64,000 bases of DNA. Origin: Allokutzneria sp. A3M-2-11 16 (GTDB taxonomy: Bacteria > Actinomycetota > Actinomycetes > Mycobacteriales > Pseudonocardiaceae). The notes below the pieces were generated by a model. The model searched no databases. It saw only the letters and a list, made by a program, of their open reading frames with translations, and was not told the DNA's origin. The DNA is taken from the NCBI RefSeq assembly GCF_024213555.1, contig NZ_JANAVO010000002.1, positions 542,269 through 606,268 of the forward strand, in the 5' to 3' direction. The stretch's first letter is position 1; each line of letters opens with the position of its first letter. Of the stretch, positions 1 to 46,633 are shown piece after piece. Made by a program: the position numbers and the translations under genes.

Positions 1-291
1 CCAGTAGAAGGTCAGCGCCGCCCAAGGGTTCGCGGCCAGCTCCCGGCCTTTGCGCCCCGCCCGGGAGGAGGCGAACTGCCAGCCGTCTCCCTTGAGGTCC
101 TTGAGGATCAGCACCCGCGCCGACGGCCACCCATGTTCGTCCACAGTGGACAAAGTGGCGGCGTGCGGCTCCCGCACACCGGCCTCGACGGCCTCCGTCA
201 GCCAGTCGGCGAACAGGGGCGCGGGCGCGGGTGGCGCGACCGCGGGATCGAAGGACGGCAGCGGTCCGACCAGGGACGGCAGTCCGAGCAC
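1..291 (-). CDS. Pyridoxamine 5'-phosphate oxidase-like FMN protein (3' part outside window)
   Basis: The visible 97 residues are the N-terminal part of a PdxH / PhzG-type FMN-binding split-barrel oxidase. The sequence contains the family pattern FADWLTEAVEAGVREPHAA, then STVDEHGWPSARVLILK (FMN-binding strand pair) and GRKGRELAANPWAALTFYW. Family members oxidise pyridoxamine or pyridoxine phosphate to PLP, or act on related small molecules, as cytosolic dimers with FMN. The start is taken as GTG at 291 because GGGAG lies just upstream; the rest of the gene runs off the left edge. It is divergent from the CGNR zinc-finger gene at 374, and the shared intergenic region carries repeated CTAATGG boxes, so the neighbour may regulate it. 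Whether it is true PdxH or a paralogous oxidase cannot be decided without the C-terminal half. Confidence 0.8.
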   Translation of the reverse strand, partial: MLGLPSLVGPLPSFDPAVAPPAPAPLFADWLTEAVEAGVREPHAATLSTVDEHGWPSARVLILKDLKGDGWQFASSRAGRKGRELAANPWAALTFYW

Positions 292-300
292 GGCAACTCC

Positions 301-364
301 CTAATGGCTTCTATCGGTATTCCCATTAGGCAAGCTACATGGTTGCAAGCCGAAAAACCATTAG
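301..364. promoter_or_regulatory. Divergent promoter with three CTAATGG/CCATTAG boxes
   Basis: CTAATGG at 301-307 faces CCATTAG at 323-329, and a second CCATTAG lies at 358-364, 35 bp from the first. The boxes form one inverted repeat and one direct repeat in an AT-richer stretch between the flavin oxidase gene and the CGNR regulator gene. Such an arrangement is typical of an operator; that the CGNR protein binds it is inference. Confidence 0.5.
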
Positions 365-373
365 ACTGCGGTC

Positions 374-904
374 GTGGACCAGCTCCTGGACTTCGTGAGC
401 ACCATCCGGCACGACGGGCACGGAGGCGTGGCCGACGCACTCTCGACCGAGTGGGTGGCGGAACGCTTCGGCGCTCAGGTGCCGGACGACTCGCTGCCCC
501 GGATCGTCGAGCTGCGCCGCGCGATCCGCTCGCTGTTCGCCCTGGCGGTCCGCCCCGATCCGCCGAGCAAGGCCGACGCGAACCGGCTCATGGACCCGCA
601 GGAGGCCGTGGCAACGCTGAACGCGGCGGCGCGCCCTCGGCTGACGCAGCTCACTTGGCCCGCAAACGGCATGCCGTCCCTGATCGACCGCATGGAGCCA
701 ACCGACGTGACCACCACCGTGCTCGCAACGCTCGCGCAGGCAGCGATCCAGTTCCTGACCGGCCCAGAACGCGAGCGCCTACAAGCATGTCCGGCCCCGC
801 GCTGCGTGCTCTACTTCGTCAAGCAGCACCCGCGCCAGGCATGGTGCAAACCCTCATGCGGCAACCGCGCGCGCGTCAGCAAGTACTACAAAACCCATCG
901 CTGA
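374..904 (+). CDS. CGNR zinc-finger (ABATE-type) putative transcriptional regulator
   Basis: 176 residues. The C-terminal end shows the family signature: CPAPRCVLYFV, then WCKPSCGNRARVSKYYK, that is four cysteines of a treble-clef zinc finger with the CGNR motif at about residues 160-163. The N-terminal two thirds match the helical ABATE (stress-induced, ligand-binding) region in layout: a short LDFVSTI segment, then ELRRAIRSLFA. CGNR proteins are thought to be DNA-binding regulators in actinobacteria. The start is GTG at 374. The last CTAATGG-type box (358-364) ends 10 bp before it and TTAGACT there could serve as a -10, so the mRNA may have almost no leader. Divergent from the FMN oxidase gene. 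Confidence 0.8.
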   Translation: MDQLLDFVSTIRHDGHGGVADALSTEWVAERFGAQVPDDSLPRIVELRRAIRSLFALAVRPDPPSKADANRLMDPQEAVATLNAAARPRLTQLTWPANGMPSLIDRMEPTDVTTTVLATLAQAAIQFLTGPERERLQACPAPRCVLYFVKQHPRQAWCKPSCGNRARVSKYYKTHR

Positions 905-921
905 CCCCGCGCCCGTAGGAC

Positions 922-1034
922 GGTCTTCAAGTACCCCCAACCCCACCCAAAACCGTCTCAAACCGCCCCCAACCCTCCGGGGGTTGGACGCGGTTAACGA
1001 CCGCTGGGGCGGGGGTTGGCGGTACTTGAAGACG
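922..1034. repeat. Palindromic intergenic element, copy 1
   Basis: 113-bp imperfect palindrome with termini GGTCTTCAAGTACC (922-935) and GGTACTTGAAGACG (1021-1034). Inner complementary segments include AACCGCCCCCAACCC against GGGTTGGACGCGGTT. It lies between the convergent 3' ends of the CGNR gene and the DUF2165 gene. Related copies are at 37038-37158 and 43855-43979. No T-run follows, so it is not a classical intrinsic terminator. Confidence 0.85.
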
Positions 1035-1045
1035 CCAGAACCCCG

Positions 1046-1546
1046 CTAGTCCCGCGTGCGTGCACCGCCGAGCGCGATGACGAGGCCGATCGAGGCGATC
1101 ACGACGTTGCGGAAGGCCGCCTCCACGCCGTTCCACTTCGAGGACTGCCACATCTGGAACCACTCGCCGCCGATCGCGATGAACCCGCCGCCGAACAGCA
1201 GCACGGCCATCACCCAGCCCACGACGGCCAGCCGCCGCGCGGTCTCCTCGCGACCCCGCCGCAGCCACGCGACGAACGCGGCGACCAGCACCGCCGCGGT
1301 CACCGCCTCCCACACGATGATCAGCACGTAGGCGATCGTGACGACGGCGGGACTGGTGATCGCCCGCCACATCACGTCGGGATCGTTGAACGTGGTGTCC
1401 ATCGCCAGCACGTGCACGACGAACTGCTCGTTCGTGCCGTAGTCGGTCACGTTGCCAAGGACGATCAGCACGAAGTACAGCGCCGTGACACCGGTCAGCG
1501 CGGCCAGTGCGACGCGCGCGGTACCGAACCTGCCGATCACGTTCAT
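1046..1546 (-). CDS. DUF2165-like small integral membrane protein
   Basis: 166 residues with four hydrophobic segments at about 10-32, 62-92, 104-125 and 140-158. The layout, length and the WFQMWQSSKWNG segment before the last helix match the DUF2165 (COG5472) family of predicted four-helix membrane proteins of unknown function. It probably sits in the cytoplasmic membrane with both ends inside; the topology is inferred from hydrophobicity only. It is followed, on its 3' side, by palindromic element copy 1 and preceded by the secreted protein gene at 1575-2756 on the same strand, with 28 bp between them. No enzymatic motif is visible. Confidence 0.75.
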   Translation of the reverse strand: MNVIGRFGTARVALAALTGVTALYFVLIVLGNVTDYGTNEQFVVHVLAMDTTFNDPDVMWRAITSPAVVTIAYVLIIVWEAVTAAVLVAAFVAWLRRGREETARRLAVVGWVMAVLLFGGGFIAIGGEWFQMWQSSKWNGVEAAFRNVVIASIGLVIALGGARTRD

Positions 1547-36063: not shown

Positions 36064-37023
36064 GTGCGAGTGCTTCGGAGGAGAACGCTCACGGCCCTCG
36101 TCCTCGTCGCGGCGAGCGTGCTCGTCGGCTGCCAGGCGGGTTTCGGCGACCTGCGGCTGAAGGTGGCGGCGGGCTCCCGCGGCGGCGTCTACTACGGGCT
36201 GAGCAACACGCTGGCCACGGTCTGGGGCCGCCACCTGGCGATCAGACCGCCGGAGGTGCTGGCCACCGAGGGCTCGGTGGACAACCTGAAGATGCTGCGC
36301 GAGGGGCGTGCGCAGGTCGGCTTCTCCCAGGGCGACACCGCCTCCGACGAGTTCGCGCGCGAGGCGACCAACCCGACGCTCGCGGGCAACGGGCTGCGCG
36401 CGCTGACCCGGATGCACGACGACTACCTGCAGCTCGTGGTGCGCGCGGACTCGCCCGTGCGCAAGGTCTCCGACCTGCGCGGCAAGCGGGTCTCGATCGG
36501 CGCGATGAACTCCGGCGTCCAGGTCATCGCGCAGCGCGTGCTGGACGCGGCGAAGGTGCGCGTGGAGAAGGACCTCGTCGCGGTGCAGTACGGCGTCGCC
36601 GACTCCGCGACGGCACTGCGCGAGGGCCGGATCGACGCGTTCTTCTGGTCCGGTGGCCTGCCGACGGACGCGGTGACCGCGCTGTCGAAGGCGGTCAAAC
36701 TGCGCATGATCGATCTCTCGGACGTGCTGCCGGACCTGCGCAAGCGCTACCCCGGCTACGGCGCGGCCAGCCTGCCCGCGTCCACCTACGACCTCGCGTC
36801 CGGGCCGGTGGTCACCCTGGTGGTGCGCAACTTCCTGGTGGTGACCGCCTCGATGCCCGACGACATCGCCGAGGCGCTGACCCGCAGCGTCTACGCCTCG
36901 CTGCCGGACCTCGTGGGCGCGAACTCGGCGGCCCGCACCATCGACGTCCGCGGAGCGGTGGAGACCGAGCCGCTGCCGCTGCACCCCGGCGCGATCAACT
37001 ACTACCGCACGGTGAAGCTCTAG
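36064..37023 (+). CDS. TAXI-family solute-binding lipoprotein
   Basis: 319 residues from GTG 36064. Signal and lipobox TLTALVLVAASVLVGCQAG. The TAXI (TRAP-associated extracytoplasmic immunogenic) domain shows KVAAGSRGGVYYGLSNTLA, VLATEGSVDNLKMLREGRAQVGFSQGDTA, LRGKRVSIGAMNSGVQVIAQRVL and DAFFWSGGLPTDAVTAL. TAXI proteins bind small acids such as glutamate for TRAP transporters. No TRAP membrane genes are in the window, but the gluRK/gluABCD genes follow, so it may act as a sensor partner of the GluK-like kinase; that is inference. Convergent with that kinase gene, with palindromic element copy 2 between. Confidence 0.88.
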   Translation: MRVLRRRTLTALVLVAASVLVGCQAGFGDLRLKVAAGSRGGVYYGLSNTLATVWGRHLAIRPPEVLATEGSVDNLKMLREGRAQVGFSQGDTASDEFAREATNPTLAGNGLRALTRMHDDYLQLVVRADSPVRKVSDLRGKRVSIGAMNSGVQVIAQRVLDAAKVRVEKDLVAVQYGVADSATALREGRIDAFFWSGGLPTDAVTALSKAVKLRMIDLSDVLPDLRKRYPGYGAASLPASTYDLASGPVVTLVVRNFLVVTASMPDDIAEALTRSVYASLPDLVGANSAARTIDVRGAVETEPLPLHPGAINYYRTVKL

Positions 37024-37037
37024 CCCCCGGGTTCGCC

Positions 37038-37158
37038 GGTCTTCAAGTACCGCGAACCCCCGCCACAGCGGTCGCAAACCGCCCCCAACCCTGGCGCGGC
37101 CGCGAGGTATGCCGTGGTTAGCGATCGCCGGAGCCGGGGTGGGGCGTACTTGAAGACC
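37038..37158. repeat. Palindromic intergenic element, copy 2
   Basis: 121 bp with perfect 13-14 bp termini GGTCTTCAAGTAC (37038-37050) and GTACTTGAAGACC (37146-37158). Inner arms AGCGGTCGCAAACC and GGTTAGCGATCGCC pair imperfectly; the centre has diverged from the other copies. Located between convergent TAXI and gluK-like genes. Confidence 0.85.
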
Positions 37159-37188
37159 GTCAAACCACCGCGGTGATATTCGGGGCGG

Positions 37189-38589
37189 CTAACGGATCGA
37201 GCGCTCCGGCGGGGCGAGCGGCATGGTCACCACGACCTTGAGGCCGCCGCCCTTGGGCAGCTCCAGCCGGACGTTGCCGTCCACCCGCGCGACGATCCGG
37301 GTCACGATCGCCAGTCCGAGCCCGGAGCCGGGCACGTTCTGGTGGCTCGGGCTGCGCCAGAACCGGTCGGTGGCCCGCTCCAGCTCCTTCGGGCGCAGGC
37401 CGGGGCCCTCGTCGCGGACGCTGACCTCGACCCGGTTGTCGACCCGCCGCGCGCCCACCTCGACCACCGTGCCGTCGGAGGTGAACTTCAGCGCGTTGTC
37501 CAGCAGCGCGTCCAGGATGCCCTCCAGGCCGCGCGGGGTGAGCATCGCCACGAGGTCGGTCTCGCCGGTCTGCACCAGCTCGACGTGGCGCGAGTCGGCG
37601 ACGGCGCTCCACGCCTGCAACCGCTCGATGATGATGTCGTCCACGTCGATCGGCACCGGGTCCAGCGAGCTCGCCTCGGCCCGCGCCATCACCAGCAGCT
37701 CGTCCAGCAGCCGGTTCAGCCGGTCGGTCTCCTCGATGGCGGCCTCGTGGTGCACCTCCGCCTCGGCGTCGACGTGGCCCTCCAGGTTGCCCAGCCGCAG
37801 CCGCAGCGCGGTGAGCGGGTTGCGCAGCTGGTGCGAGGCGTCGGCGACGAAGGCCCGCTGCGCGGCCAGCACGTCACCGACCGCGGCGGCCATCTGCTCG
37901 AAGGAGCGGGTCAGCATCCGCAGCTCGGGCGGGCCGCCGTTGCCACCCACCGGCTCGACGGGGCGGCCCATGACCAGCGCGGTCACCATCTTCCCGGTGG
38001 CCTCGTCCAGCCGCTGCACGGGTTTGAGGATCCAGCGCACCACCGGCAGCGCGAACAGGATGCCCGCGCCCAGCGCCAGCAGGCTGCCCAGCAGCAGCGC
38101 GCCCCACCAGACCACCACCCGCCCGCGCGCCGACGCCGTCGGCGAGATGATCAGCGCGGCGCCGCGCACCTCGCCGTCGGCCAGCACCGGTGCCGCCAGG
38201 ACCAGTGGTTCCTCGTGCCACGGCAGCATCAGGTCACCGGGCTCGGAGTGCCGCCCGGCCAGCGCCAGCGAGACCCGGTCGATCACCTTCCGGTCGGTCA
38301 GCTCCAGGCCCGGCCGCGAGCGCGCGACCACGGTGCCGTCCCGGTCGGTGATGGCCACCGCGATCCGGTAGACCTCGTCGTAGCGGCGCAGCTCGCGCTC
38401 GATCACCGAGGGCTGGTCGTCGATGATCGGCCGCTGGGCCAGCGAGGCGAACCGGGTGACGTCGGTCAGCCGGTCCAGGAACAGCCGCTGCTGCTCGGCG
38501 CCCGCGACGGTGGCGGCGAGCGGCACACCCAGCCCGGCGAGCACCAGCACCAGCAGGGACAGCACCGTCGTCAGCAACCGGGAACGCAC
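37189..38589 (-). CDS. gluK: GluK-like sensor histidine kinase
   Basis: 466 residues. N-terminal membrane helix (LLTTVLSLLVLVLAGLGVPLAATV), an extracytoplasmic sensor of about 130 residues, a second helix (VVWWGALLLGSLLALGAGILFALP), a HAMP linker (VRWILKPVQRLDEATGKMV), the HisKA dimerisation box FVADASHQLRNPLTALRLRL (His near residue 252) and the HATPase domain with the N box LDNALKF and the G boxes RDEGPGL and GSGLGLAIV. The gene lies next to gluABCD as GluK does in Streptomyces coelicolor, where GluR-GluK responds to extracellular glutamate. It is 102 bp downstream of the response regulator gene. Confidence 0.82.
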   Translation of the reverse strand: MRSRLLTTVLSLLVLVLAGLGVPLAATVAGAEQQRLFLDRLTDVTRFASLAQRPIIDDQPSVIERELRRYDEVYRIAVAITDRDGTVVARSRPGLELTDRKVIDRVSLALAGRHSEPGDLMLPWHEEPLVLAAPVLADGEVRGAALIISPTASARGRVVVWWGALLLGSLLALGAGILFALPVVRWILKPVQRLDEATGKMVTALVMGRPVEPVGGNGGPPELRMLTRSFEQMAAAVGDVLAAQRAFVADASHQLRNPLTALRLRLGNLEGHVDAEAEVHHEAAIEETDRLNRLLDELLVMARAEASSLDPVPIDVDDIIIERLQAWSAVADSRHVELVQTGETDLVAMLTPRGLEGILDALLDNALKFTSDGTVVEVGARRVDNRVEVSVRDEGPGLRPKELERATDRFWRSPSHQNVPGSGLGLAIVTRIVARVDGNVRLELPKGGGLKVVVTMPLAPPERSIR

Positions 38590-42842: not shown

Positions 42843-42894
42843 CGCGCTCTCCTCTAGGGTGCTCTGGACCCAGTACGACCCGCGAGGGGGAGAA

Positions 42895-43830
42895 ATGCCC
42901 ATGCACCGTCGGTCCGCATTCGTCGCGGCGGTCGTGATGGGGGTTCTCCCCCTCGCGGCGTGTGGTGGCGGCTCTGAGGAGACTCCGGCGCCCACCGAGG
43001 CCCCGCGGACCTCGGTCACCGACGACGGCTCCGGCTCGCCGACGATCGACAAGATCCGGCAGAACGGGCGCCTGCTCATGGGCACCACCGACAGCCTGCC
43101 CGGGGTGTCGCTGCAGGACCAGGGCAACGGCAAGTACTCCGGCTTCGACACGAAGCTGGCGACCGCCATCGCCAAGGAGATCGGCCTCAAGGACCCGGAC
43201 CCGGTGCGCTACCGCTCCGCGAGCCCGGAGACCCGGTTCAACTCGCTGCGCAGCGGCGACGTGGACCTGGTGGTCGGCGGGATCAAGACCAACCAGCCGC
43301 AGCCGCAGATCTCCTTCGTCGGCCCCTACCTGAAGGTGGCGCAGGACCTGCTGGTCCGCTCCGACAGCGGCATCAGCACGGCCGCCCAGCTGGCCGACAA
43401 GCAGGTGTGCGTGGTCGCGGGGTCGGGCGCGGCGCAGAAGCTGAAGGCCGCGCGGGTGACCCAGAACGTGGTCGAGGAGAACCTGGGCAGCCGCTGCGTC
43501 GAGTCCCTCCAGGCGGGCCGGGTCGCGGCGTTCTCCGCCGACGACGCGGTGCTGCGCGGGTACTCGGAGCAGGCCAAGGGCGCGCTGAAGGTGCTCGGCG
43601 TGAAGCTCACCGACGAGGGCTACTACATCGGCATCCCGGCCCGCGACAAGGAGCTGCGCCGCCAGCTGGAGGCGATGCTGAAGAAGTCCTTCCAGGACGG
43701 CTCCTGGGCGCGGATGTACGGCGAGGTCTACGGCACCGCCGAACCCGCGCCCACTCCCCCCGTCCTGAGCCCGGCCCCCGTCACCACGACGCCCTCCACC
43801 TCCGTCACCACCACCGCGCCCCCGCGCTAA
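42895..43830 (+). CDS. Second glutamate-type binding lipoprotein with Thr/Pro tail
   Basis: 311 residues from ATG 42895 (GGGGGAG upstream). Lipobox MGVLPLAACGGGS. The SBP_bac_3 domain (LLMGTTDSLPGVSLQDQGN, SGFDTKLATAIAKEIGLKDPDPVRY, LVVGGIKTNQPQPQISFVGPYLK) resembles GluB but is clearly diverged, and a C-terminal 35-residue Thr/Pro/Ser tail follows. Only 53 bp separate it from gluD, so it is probably the last gene of the gluABCD operon, giving the transporter two binding proteins or a receptor for the GluK-like kinase. Then comes palindromic element copy 3. Confidence 0.88.
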   Translation: MPMHRRSAFVAAVVMGVLPLAACGGGSEETPAPTEAPRTSVTDDGSGSPTIDKIRQNGRLLMGTTDSLPGVSLQDQGNGKYSGFDTKLATAIAKEIGLKDPDPVRYRSASPETRFNSLRSGDVDLVVGGIKTNQPQPQISFVGPYLKVAQDLLVRSDSGISTAAQLADKQVCVVAGSGAAQKLKAARVTQNVVEENLGSRCVESLQAGRVAAFSADDAVLRGYSEQAKGALKVLGVKLTDEGYYIGIPARDKELRRQLEAMLKKSFQDGSWARMYGEVYGTAEPAPTPPVLSPAPVTTTPSTSVTTTAPPR

Positions 43831-43854: not shown

Positions 43855-43979
43855 CGTCTTCAAGTACCACGAACCCCACCTGAAACGGTCGCTAACAGCA
43901 GCTAACCCCCGTCCGCAGAGACGGGGGTTAGCTGCTGTTAGCGACGGCTGGGGCGGGGGTTGGGGGTACTTGAAGACCG
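43855..43979. repeat. Palindromic intergenic element, copy 3 (most perfect)
   Basis: 125 bp. Outer termini CGTCTTCAAGTACC (43855-43868) and GGTACTTGAAGACCG; the inner arms pair without mismatch for 26 bp (43888-43913 with 43920-43945, starting GTCGCTAACAGC) around the 6-nt loop CGCAGA. It separates the convergent second binding protein gene and sdhB. Right arm nearly identical to copy 1. Confidence 0.9.
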
Positions 43980-43994
43980 GCCAACCCCCCGGCG

Positions 43995-44741
43995 TCACTG
44001 CTTCCTGATGCGGCGGAACAGGTGCTGCATCGGGTCGTAGCGGCGGTCGGCCACCCGCTCCTTCAAGGGGATCAGCGCGTTGTCGGTGATCTGGATGTGC
44101 TCCGGGCAGACGTCCGTGCAGCACTTGGTGATGTTGCAGAAACCGAGCCCGTGATCGGCCTGTGCGGTCTCCACGCGGTCCTCGGTGTCCAGCGGGTGCA
44201 TCTCCAGCTCCGAGATGCGCATGAGGAACCTGGGGCCGGAGAACGACTCCTTGTTCTCGTCGTGGTCGCGGACCACGTGGCAGGTGTTCTGGCACAGGAA
44301 GCACTCGATGCACTTCCGGAACTCCTGCGAGCGCTCCACGTCGACCTGCTGCATGCGGTACTCGCCCGGCTTCAGCCCCTCCGGCGGTTTGAAGGACGGG
44401 ACCTCGCGCGCCTTGACGTAGTTGTAGGACACGTCGGTCACCAGGTCGCGGATCACCGGGAACGTCCGAAGTGGAGTGACGGTGATCGTCTCGTCCTCGG
44501 TGAAGGTGGACATCCGGGTCATGCACAGCAGGCGCGGGCGGCCGTTGATCTCCGCCGAGCACGAGCCGCACTTGCCCGCCTTGCAGTTCCACCGCACCGC
44601 GAGGTCCGGGGCCTGGGTGGCCTGGAGCCGGTGGATGATGTCGAGTACGACCTCGCCCTCGTTGACCTCCACCACGAAGTCGGCGAGCTCGCCGCCCTCG
44701 TCGTCGCCGCGCCAGATGCGGAAGTTCGCCTTGTAGCTCAT
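43995..44741 (-). CDS. sdhB: Succinate dehydrogenase iron-sulfur subunit (Sdh1 type)
   Basis: 248 residues from ATG 44741. N-terminal [2Fe-2S] ferredoxin domain (WNCKAGKCGSCSAEINGRPRLLC) and C-terminal cluster domain with CIECFLCQNTC and CNITKCCTDVCPEHI. Its length and order match mycobacterial Rv0247c of Sdh1. Electrons pass from the FAD of SdhA to the membrane quinone site. Start overlaps sdhA stop (ATGG/TGA region at 44738-44741). Confidence 0.94.
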   Translation of the reverse strand: MSYKANFRIWRGDDEGGELADFVVEVNEGEVVLDIIHRLQATQAPDLAVRWNCKAGKCGSCSAEINGRPRLLCMTRMSTFTEDETITVTPLRTFPVIRDLVTDVSYNYVKAREVPSFKPPEGLKPGEYRMQQVDVERSQEFRKCIECFLCQNTCHVVRDHDENKESFSGPRFLMRISELEMHPLDTEDRVETAQADHGLGFCNITKCCTDVCPEHIQITDNALIPLKERVADRRYDPMQHLFRRIRKQ

Positions 44742-46633
44742 GGAAGCTCCCCGTGTCCGGCCAGTTCGGAGTCGGTGTAGTACTTCTGCAGCTCCTCGCG
44801 CTCGAACAGGTCGAGCAGGTCCGAGCGCATCTCCGGCTGCGGCAGGCTGGTCACCGCGATCCCGTCTCCGTCGGCCTCGCAGCGGAGCACCTGCTTGCGC
44901 CACAACGGGTCCATCCCCGGGTAGTCGTCGCGGGTGTGCCCGCCCCGGCTCTCCGTGCGCAGCAGGGCGGCCCTGGCGACGCACTCGCTGACCAGGATCA
45001 TGTTGCGCAGGTCGATCGCCAGGTGCCAGCCGGGGTTGAACTGCCGGTGCCCCTCCACCGCCGCGTTGCGCGCGCGGATCTTGAGCTGCTCCAGGTTCTC
45101 CAGCGCCTGCTCGATCTCGCCGCCCTTGCGGATGATGCCGACGAGGTCGTTCATCGACTGCTGGAGCTCGGTGTGCACCGTGTACGGGTTCTCCACCTCG
45201 CCGCCCTCGGCCGCGTTGAACGGCGCCTGCGCCCACTGCGCCGCACTGTCCACATCGGACTGGCTGATCGCCGGGCGGGCGCTCAGACCGTCCACGTAGG
45301 ACGCCGCGCCGAGCCCGGCCCTGCGGCCGAACACCAGCAGGTCCGACAGCGAGTTGCCGCCGAGCCGGTTCGACCCGTGCATGCCGCCCGCCACCTCGCC
45401 GGCGGCGAACAGGCCGGGCACCCTGGACTGCGCCGTGTCCGGCTCGACCTCCACCCCGCCCATGACGTAGTGGCAGGTGGGGCCGACCTCCATCGGCTCG
45501 GCGGTGATGTCGACGTCGGCCAGCTCCTTGAACTGGTGGTGCATCGACGGCAGCCTGCGGCGGATCTCCTCGGCGGGCAGACGCGTTGACACGTCGAGGA
45601 AAACGCCGCCGTGCGGGGTTCCGCGCCCCGCCTTCACCTCGGAGTTGATCGCACGCGCGACCTCGTCGCGGGGCAGCAGCTCCGGCGGCCTGCGGTTGCT
45701 GTCCGGGTCGGTGTACCAGCGGTCCGCCTCGGCCTCGTTGTCGGCGTACTTGTCCTTGAAGACCTCGGGGATGTAGTCGAACATGAACCGGCGGCCCTCG
45801 GAGTTGCGCAGCACACCGCCGTCCCCGCGCACCGACTCGGTGACCAGGATGCCCTTCACGCTGGGCGGCCAGACCATCCCGGTGGGGTGGAACTGGATGA
45901 ACTCCATGTTGATCAGGCTGGCGCCCGCGCGCAGTGCGAGCGCGTGCCCGTCGCCGGTGTACTCCCAGGAGTTCGAGGTCACCTTGAAGGACTTGCCGAC
46001 TCCGCCCGTCGCCAGCACCACGGCGGGCGCCTCGAAGAGCACGAAGCGGCCCGTCTCGCGCCAGTAGCCGAACGCGCCCGCGATCGCCCCGTCGTCCTTG
46101 AGCAGCTCGGTGACCGTGCACTCGGCGAAGACCCGGATGCGCGCCTCGTAGTCGCCGGAGTCGCGGAAGTCCTGCTGCTGCAAGGAGACGATCTGCTGCT
46201 GGAGGCTGCGGATCAGCTCCAGACCGGTGCGGTCGCCGACGTGCGCGAGCCGCGGGTACTCGTGACCGCCGAAGTTGCGCTGGCTGATCCGGCCGTCCTT
46301 GGTGCGGTCGAACAGCGCGCCGTAGGTCTCCAGTTCCCAGACGCGGTCGGGGGCCTCGCGCGCGTGCAGCTCGGCCATCCGCCAGTTGTTGAGGAACTTC
46401 CCGCCGCGCATGGTGTCGCGGAAGTGGACCTGCCAGTTGTCCCGGGAGTTCACGTTGCCCATCGCCGCGGCGATACCGCCCTCGGCCATCACGGTGTGCG
46501 CCTTGCCGAACAGCGACTTGCACACGATCGCGACGCGCTTGCCCTGTTCCCGCGCCTCGATCGCCGCGCGCAGGCCGGCCCCGCCGGCACCGATCACCAC
46601 GACGTCGTAGGCGTGGCGCTCGATCTCACTCAT
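44738..46633 (-). CDS. sdhA: Succinate dehydrogenase / fumarate reductase flavoprotein subunit
   Basis: 631 residues. FAD-binding VVVIGAGGAGLRAAIEAREQG, the flavin-linking region with KAHTVMAEGGIAAAMGN, substrate residues in FIQFHPTGMVWPP, HGSNRLGGNSLSDLLVFGRRAG and GGHTRDDYPGMD. Like mycobacterial Rv0248c (Sdh1). It oxidises succinate to fumarate on the cytoplasmic face of the membrane. sdhC lies 20 bp upstream, sdhB overlaps downstream. Confidence 0.95.
   Translation of the reverse strand: MSEIERHAYDVVVIGAGGAGLRAAIEAREQGKRVAIVCKSLFGKAHTVMAEGGIAAAMGNVNSRDNWQVHFRDTMRGGKFLNNWRMAELHAREAPDRVWELETYGALFDRTKDGRISQRNFGGHEYPRLAHVGDRTGLELIRSLQQQIVSLQQQDFRDSGDYEARIRVFAECTVTELLKDDGAIAGAFGYWRETGRFVLFEAPAVVLATGGVGKSFKVTSNSWEYTGDGHALALRAGASLINMEFIQFHPTGMVWPPSVKGILVTESVRGDGGVLRNSEGRRFMFDYIPEVFKDKYADNEAEADRWYTDPDSNRRPPELLPRDEVARAINSEVKAGRGTPHGGVFLDVSTRLPAEEIRRRLPSMHHQFKELADVDITAEPMEVGPTCHYVMGGVEVEPDTAQSRVPGLFAAGEVAGGMHGSNRLGGNSLSDLLVFGRRAGLGAASYVDGLSARPAISQSDVDSAAQWAQAPFNAAEGGEVENPYTVHTELQQSMNDLVGIIRKGGEIEQALENLEQLKIRARNAAVEGHRQFNPGWHLAIDLRNMILVSECVARAALLRTESRGGHTRDDYPGMDPLWRKQVLRCEADGDGIAVTSLPQPEMRSDLLDLFEREELQKYYTDSELAGHGELP

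Follow-up and report, generated by a model that had tools for sequence, protein, structure and literature searches.

Do the three palindromic segments that lie between convergent genes in the window (the whole 64,000-nucleotide stretch of DNA analysed here) belong to a mobile or protein-recognised repeat, or to a family of bidirectional terminators, as the initial annotation proposed from their shared ends and long self-complementarity? All three segments were found where it had placed them, each with a core bounded by perfect GTCTTCAAGTAC / GTACTTGAAGAC ends. Element 1 (922-1034) has a palindromic core of 111 bp (923-1033), with the left end box GTCTTCAAGTAC at 923-934 on the plus strand and the inverted right end box at 1022-1033 on the minus strand. 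Element 2 (37038-37158) has a core of 119 bp (37039-37157) with end boxes at 37039-37050 (plus) and 37146-37157 (minus), and carries an outer GGTT at 37030-37033 and an outer AACC at 37163-37166. Element 3 (43855-43979) has a core of 122 bp (43856-43977) with a long near-perfect inner stem and end boxes at 43856-43867 (plus) and 43966-43977 (minus). The outer motifs are part of a conserved dyad that in the family extends about 9 bases past each end (GGTT...AACC); the left side of element 1 lacks the full GGTT. A scan for elements over positions 260001-660000 of contig C22, which includes the whole window, found exactly these three inside the window.

The convergent setting was borne out by the flanking reading frames. 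An ORF at 133-918 (plus strand) ends 4 bp ahead of the core of element 1, and the convergent gene for a DUF2165 membrane protein (1046-1546, minus strand) ends next to that element. Element 2 is preceded by the end of a gene for an NMT1-like substrate-binding protein (36064-37023, plus strand) and followed by that of a convergent histidine kinase gene (37189-38589, minus strand), while element 3 lies between the ends of genes for a solute-binding protein (42859-43830, plus strand) and an Fe-S domain protein (43995-46523, minus strand). Pfam domains were found in five of these six proteins, the exception being the product of 133-918. The predicted long hairpins also held, since all three elements fold far better than dinucleotide shuffles: -70.2 kcal/mol for element 1 (z -7.1), -72.8 kcal/mol for element 2 (z -5.8) and -97.1 kcal/mol for element 3 (z -13.8); for each element, none of 200 shuffles folded as well. 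A known RNA family was ruled out by the absence of any Rfam match above the gathering threshold within the window.

We sought the terminal pair across the genome that carries the window (G000, 8.81 Mb). The 12-mer GTCTTCAAGTAC occurs 222 + 227 times (reversed control, 1 + 1), as an exact inverted pair 138 times (control, 0), and the inverted end 9-mers stand 81-111 bases apart 220 times (control, 0). The genome-wide search that the initial annotation had called for thus revealed a large family, and the reversed-pattern controls rule out a chance origin in this genome. In contigs C11 and C22, 2.0 Mb or 23% of the genome was read in detail and holds 83 elements when one substitution per end is permitted, from which we extrapolate that the genome probably carries about 300-450. 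Not all exact end 9-mers are paired: of 190 in 1.6 Mb, about a quarter (48) stand without a partner at a distance of 40-170 bp. On inspection by eye, roughly half of the 48 look like chance occurrences in coding sequence, and the rest like arms whose partner is distant or absent. Cores are mostly 108-123 bp long, most commonly 119 bp (18 of 60 pairs).

The ends of the elements are almost invariant. In an end-aligned set of 124 arms, the consensus starts with GGTT, five variable bases and GTCTTCAAG, each base of which is present in 99-100% of arms, a percentage to be read with the selection of these arms by their ends in mind. There follow TAC (T 93%, A 84%, C 100%), C at position 15, ACCCC at 18-22 and a loose stretch at 24-34. 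The inner module then has C at positions 35, 44 and 47, AAC at 39-41 and AACC at 49-52, and is followed by a short loop. At positions 10-12, 42 of 72 elements read TAC in both arms, 18 read TCC/TAC and 1 reads TCC/TCC. Searches from the interior gave the same picture. A profile of positions 13-54 only, allowing a shift of 3 bases and trained on arms that had been located by their ends, found 110 arms in the 2.0 Mb, of which 109 have a perfect 9-mer and one has a single mismatch; the same profile found 1 arm in 0.4 Mb of a sister species (G002). The inner hairpin alone gave 52 matches. Both 9-mers are perfect in 50 of them, and the other two also have intact ends, one being a shifted hit and one an element of 308 bp in total with extra DNA in its middle. 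The interiors themselves are diverse: with two overlapping neighbours set aside, the best-scoring pair is 87.5% identical, and no near-identical, recent copies were found among the best 30 scoring pairs. By eye, the outer module (positions 1-22) resembles the inner one (33-54; GTCTTCAAGTACCCCGAACCCC / GTCGCTAACCGCCCCCAACCCC), and the element looks like a nested doublet. By eye again, in 48 listed elements read on either strand, the 5' arm is rich in C and poor in G, and the 3' arm is G-rich. A transcript of either strand would therefore meet a C-rich stretch first, which would suit a Rho-type or G-quadruplex idea.

Placement relative to genes was assessed with a codon-usage gene caller, without annotation, which called 1870 genes in the 2.0 Mb. 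The 83 elements comprise 48 in convergent junctions, 31 between genes of the same direction, 3 in divergent gaps and 1 inside a called gene. Convergent junctions thus hold 48 of the 82 intergenic elements versus 19% expected from intergenic length (p 3.7e-15), and divergent gaps hold 3 of the 82 versus 29% expected (p 3.9e-9). With 1 of 83 inside a called gene and 3 of 83 in divergent gaps, the pattern that the initial annotation had named as refuting its proposal, copies as common in genes and promoters as at convergent junctions, did not appear. Elements between same-direction genes lie a median of 18 nt past the upstream stop and 113 nt ahead of the next start, and in convergent gaps the median distance between element and gene is 26.5 nt. 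We also surveyed gaps of 40-500 bp for inverted repeats. Among gaps free of the family, a perfect inverted repeat of at least 9 is present in 53% of 116 convergent, 20% of 560 same-direction and 7% of 290 divergent gaps. Hairpins at convergent gene ends are thus general in this genome, and the GTCTTCAAGTAC-ended family is one kind among them. Convergent gaps that contain the family hold such a repeat in 44% of 43 cases, a lower share because family stems are often interrupted.

How far does the pairing between arms extend, and is it maintained? In 72 elements, positions 35-54 agree between arms in 78.0% of cases versus 70.0% when permuted (z 9.4), positions 24-34 show no excess over permutation (z -1.5), and positions 13-23 agree less than permuted (z -2.3). 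The inner 20 bp of each arm therefore covary and positions 13-34 do not. The statement that nearly the whole element is self-complementary likewise applies across the family to the outer 12 bp and to the inner 20 bp, and not to the middle of the arm (24-34), which has no consistent pairing. In an alignment of 46 sequences, 52 cells have changes on both sides; the shuffled value is 23.4, and none of 500 shuffles came as high. Pairing falls from 96% to 34-51% when the partner is shifted by 1-3 columns; further pair types are not above shuffles (16 versus 15.2; 219 of 500 shuffles), and the RNAalifold covariation term is only -0.16. Shared descent from palindromic founders could be part of the source of this signal. 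At one orthologous junction, where each of the three species of the genus has the inner stem, reading by eye showed two pairs in which both bases had changed and one mismatch of an intermediate kind. This junction supports the maintenance of pairing once the species had separated, whether through selection or through template switching. Selection at the RNA level was tried as an explanation and received no support from wobble pairs: on the transcribed strand of the inner stem in 25 same-direction elements, G-U and A-C stand at 17 to 23 (p 0.43). A DNA-level role, through a cruciform or single-strand recognition, is thus at least as open. On the plus strand of 44 convergent elements, three of four stretches have more A-C than G-U (p 0.017, 0.016 and 0.005); in the inner stem the counts are 37 versus 16 (p 0.005), an asymmetry between the strands.

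The family is patchily distributed among relatives. Among 390 genomes of the Pseudonocardiaceae, each pair pattern, long or short, matches 6. The long pair was found 220 times in its own genome, 6 times in a second species of the genus (G001) and once in the third (G002), and 384 of the 390 genomes have none. The other long-pair matches read as coding sequence (G206 and G215) or as a cluster of short units (G261, 2 matches); the reversed control itself matches once each in two genomes (G075 and G021), so counts of one or two mean little without the sequence. A short pair, spanning 14-44 bases, was found 46 times in G008, 9 in G261, 5 in G010, 2 in G238 and once each in G001 and G002 (control, 1 in one genome). 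Short two-unit forms thus occur in a few other Pseudonocardiaceae, and the long pair is nearly confined to its own genome. A covariance model matched 6 of 26 genomes, namely the three of the genus, G008 (28), G010 (10) and G009 (1). Counting both strands, it gave 41 matches in G001 and 32 in G002 (about 20 and 16 elements) and at least 126 in the own genome.

Scanning 84,980 species for the short form yielded 34 stretches, of which Pseudonocardiaceae bacterium YIM PH 21723 contributes 21, Actinocrispum wychmicini 8, Herbihabitans rhizosphaerae 4 and a Chloroflexi MAG 1. By eye, the three Pseudonocardiaceae share a GTCTTCAAGAC core, which in many copies of each has flanks particular to the lineage: in YIM PH 21723 the core is preceded by TTATCC, and it is followed by CACCAAC in Actinocrispum and by AGCAAAC in Herbihabitans. 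The end unit is, also by eye, a clear small palindrome in the short forms of these other genera and a degraded one in the own genome (GTCTTCAAGTAC). Of the 34 stretches, 13 are convergent, 6 same-direction, 3 divergent, 2 in a called gene and 10 at the edge of the locus; 13 of the 24 placed short relatives are thus convergent. Two loci in an Actinocrispum-type genome carry four end units in a row (L121:2307-2416 and L222:1501-1610). These clusters recall the higher-order REPIN clusters described beside RAYT genes in PMC3116915.

To follow turnover, we compared C22:260001-660000 with the sister genome G002, which aligns to it in long blocks of mostly 88-94% identity. This segment contains 16 element loci, 14 of which could be resolved in G002 and 2 of which could not. 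When sorted by eye, none of the 14 holds an intact element: 4 hold relics (C22:464228, 483329, 616255 and 624327), 3 hold other hairpins (C22:418460, 470649 and 586124) and 7 are bare or short junctions (C22:438463, 439472, 493139, 528044, 543191, 579307 and 609675). For the elements of the window, the junction of element 1 is bare in G002 and that of element 3 holds a different hairpin; element 2 is missing in both G001 and G002, whose two convergent stop codons overlap there (CTAG). Overlapping stop codons in G002 were also seen at another site, at which G000 and G001 both carry elements. Bare junctions would be compatible with gain in G000 and with loss in G002 alike; loss in G002 is nevertheless real, because relics stand there. 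The small number of copies in G002 excludes essential terminators in the genus.

What kind of repeat is this? Its REP-like character is well supported: the inverted ends hardly vary, the middle varies but pairs, and the elements lie at gene 3' ends. REPINs are described as having two invariant 16-bp ends and a less conserved spacer with frequent compensatory changes, and are regarded as passengers of one transposase family (PMC3116915). Similarly, our family has two inverted, highly conserved end repeats (a perfect 9-mer in 109 of 110 arms found from the interior), a spacer that is variable and pairs over the inner 20 bp of each arm but not over positions 13-34, and many extragenic copies (220 exact long pairs; 82 of 83 elements outside called genes). 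It shares with the Pseudomonas REPINs described in PMC3116915 the two inverted invariant ends, the many dispersed extragenic copies, and a spacer that is less conserved than the ends, keeps a fairly constant length and shows compensatory changes in its fold. Unlike them, it comes from an actinobacterial host, contains an additional inner module and lacks both a GTAG tag and a Y1/RAYT match, and its cores of mostly 108-123 bp compare with 71 bp between end starts in the Pseudomonas GI REPIN (PMC3116915). An unpaired GTAG (or CGTC) tag is absent from our elements: the end box GTCTTC lies in a paired region of the fold, and the base before GTC (-1) is G in 44% and C in 40% of arms. Y1_Tnp (PF01797, the RAYT family) has no match in the own genome, and the same search was positive in 5 of 14 control genomes; mobilisation of the RAYT/IS200 type was rejected on this basis. 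With no Y1 match and no tag, together with a failed test for MITE-type duplication and a lack of recent copies (see below), the family is to be named REPIN-like rather than REPIN. Our main reading, a REPIN-like family without the known REPIN transposase whose copies probably act as two-way 3'-end hairpins, has in our estimate a probability of roughly one half.

Other known systems show partial likeness. Enterobacterial ERIC / IRU palindromes, which are imperfect, intergenic and about 127 bp long, are alike in size and location and differ in sequence and host. REPs adjoin gene 3' ends in the survey of PMC3733652, where the GTAG and CGTC families are, like ours, small palindromes near 3' ends, mostly convergent or same-direction, and where the CGTC families are likewise without a dedicated transposase. 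Our ends differ from these in being paired and without unpaired tags, with C before GTC in 40% of arms; Actinobacteria are not among the hosts listed in PMC3733652, and the word occurs 0 times in its main text. The 'I-shaped' terminators of Streptomyces clavuligerus, also a GC-rich actinobacterium, resemble our elements as GC-rich stem-loops that lack a U-run, and bidirectional transcript ends exist there (PMC8269248); the part of PMC8269248 drawn on here mentions no repeated sequence family, unlike ours. Searches of the open-access literature, judged by title, returned nothing on this sequence or on a REPIN family in Pseudonocardiaceae, a weak absence as genus names swamped some of the results, and the 12-mer GTCTTCAAGTAC turned up in three papers whose titles concern unrelated subjects.

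We suggest the following model. The element would be a doublet of a short repeat, GGTT-N5-GTCTTCAAG-N3...ACCCC, inverted and joined by a middle that varies but pairs with itself; an additional copy-like module inside it (GTCNNNAAC...AACCC) would make each element of this genus a nested hairpin of about 137 bp. In a first step, a sequence-specific factor acting on the end box, either a mobilising enzyme or a protein that binds hairpins or cruciforms, would keep the ends intact in this species, and would have been lost or weakened in relatives. In a second step, copies would persist at gene 3' ends, where they may be harmless or somewhat beneficial. The transcript of either strand is predicted to fold into a hairpin that most likely stops or protects both convergent transcripts. 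Recognition by a protein, as the invariant ends suggest, and bidirectional termination, which fits the position of the elements, both remain putative. An intrinsic terminator would have a stable stem-loop soon after the stop codon, as our elements do; a U-run after the stem was seen by eye in none of 48 listed elements, the sequence there being GC-rich. As an overall account, an actinobacterial REPIN-like system in which a dedicated but unnamed enzyme or factor of this species recognises GTCTTCAAG, perhaps folded, and spreads or preserves hundreds of nested 3'-end hairpins, with decay following its loss in the sister species, is one that we hold tentatively, at somewhat less than even odds.

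The elements may instead be host-side bidirectional terminators or mRNA 3'-end hairpins that are inherited vertically without mobility, their ends fixed by a termination or RNA-binding factor. Their 3'-end placement, the three-species site with compensated changes and the other hairpins that G002 has at 3 of the 14 junctions all agree with this explanation. However, none of the 14 resolvable sites in G002 retains an intact orthologue, the family is patchy (6 of 390 genomes per pair pattern), and neither an RNA-type wobble signal nor a U-run was found, which makes this explanation doubtful, at perhaps the level of a minority view. Sites for a nucleoid or chromosome-organising protein would be read in the duplex, with the palindrome reflecting dimeric binding and 3' ends merely being tolerated. 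The almost invariant short boxes would suit this, as would a phasing of A/T content in the arms at about 11 bp, a weak signal (permutation p 0.04) that has a peak of the same height at 3.2. Covariation between arms at the variable inner positions, though, is not needed for a protein that reads the duplex, and the elements are scarce in the sister species, so that we consider such sites improbable.

A comparably slim chance falls to an ordinary MITE, in which case the elements would be non-autonomous derivatives of an insertion sequence that has the same terminal repeats. Terminal inverted repeats are present (138 exact 12-mer pairs and 220 9-mer pairs), copies are dispersed, element-free sites exist in G002, a 10-bp direct repeat surrounds the element at L213 (by eye), and one 518-bp copy has a gene between its arms. 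A 5-bp flank repeat with one mismatch is also seen at element 2. These suggestive single sites are outweighed by the null result over all 83 elements, in which flanking direct repeats scored no better than when permuted and none reached 10 or more, against 0.8 expected; target-site duplication was rejected accordingly. In the 2.0 Mb that were read, 23% of the genome, we noticed no parent element with a transposase. Given the lack of a duplication signal and of near-identical copies among the best 30 pairs, the MITE of the initial annotation is not supported in the strict sense. Finally, template switching between the arms of functionless elements during replication, which can create and maintain hairpin pairing (PMC8794818), leaves both the almost invariant end boxes (109 of 110) and their decay in G002 relics unexplained, and is very improbable.

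Under the REPIN-like reading, a copy-rich REPIN look-alike in a genome without a RAYT match, with ends kept here and relics in the sister species, offers a natural comparison for other means of repeat maintenance. If the hairpins do end transcripts, they would provide more than 200 natural two-way terminators of shared sequence, useful in GC-rich actinobacteria.

Other palindromes occur alongside the family. A second one, TACCCAATGTGGCATT...AATGCCACATTGGGTA, interrupts a family element at L041:37-190 (G000 C11:200037-200190); its CCCAATGTGGCAT is found 21 times in the 2.0 Mb, and a diverged hairpin like it replaces element 3 of the window in G002. A further palindrome family contains CCCGTTTCGTACTCATAG / CTATGAGTACGAAACGGG, and its 13-base words are spread over as many as 40 intergenic regions within the 2.0 Mb. 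The palindrome words GAACGGGTCGTTC and TGAATGAGTCATT occur there 22 and 47 times, some copies lying inside or beside family elements, and GTCCACAGTGGAC occurs 97 times, both strands counted. The 518-bp copy (G000 C11:926154-926671; L081:6154-6671) carries, as its only gene, a minus-strand ORF of 117 aa between its arms, whose product matches Glyoxalase (PF00903, E 1.2e-4).
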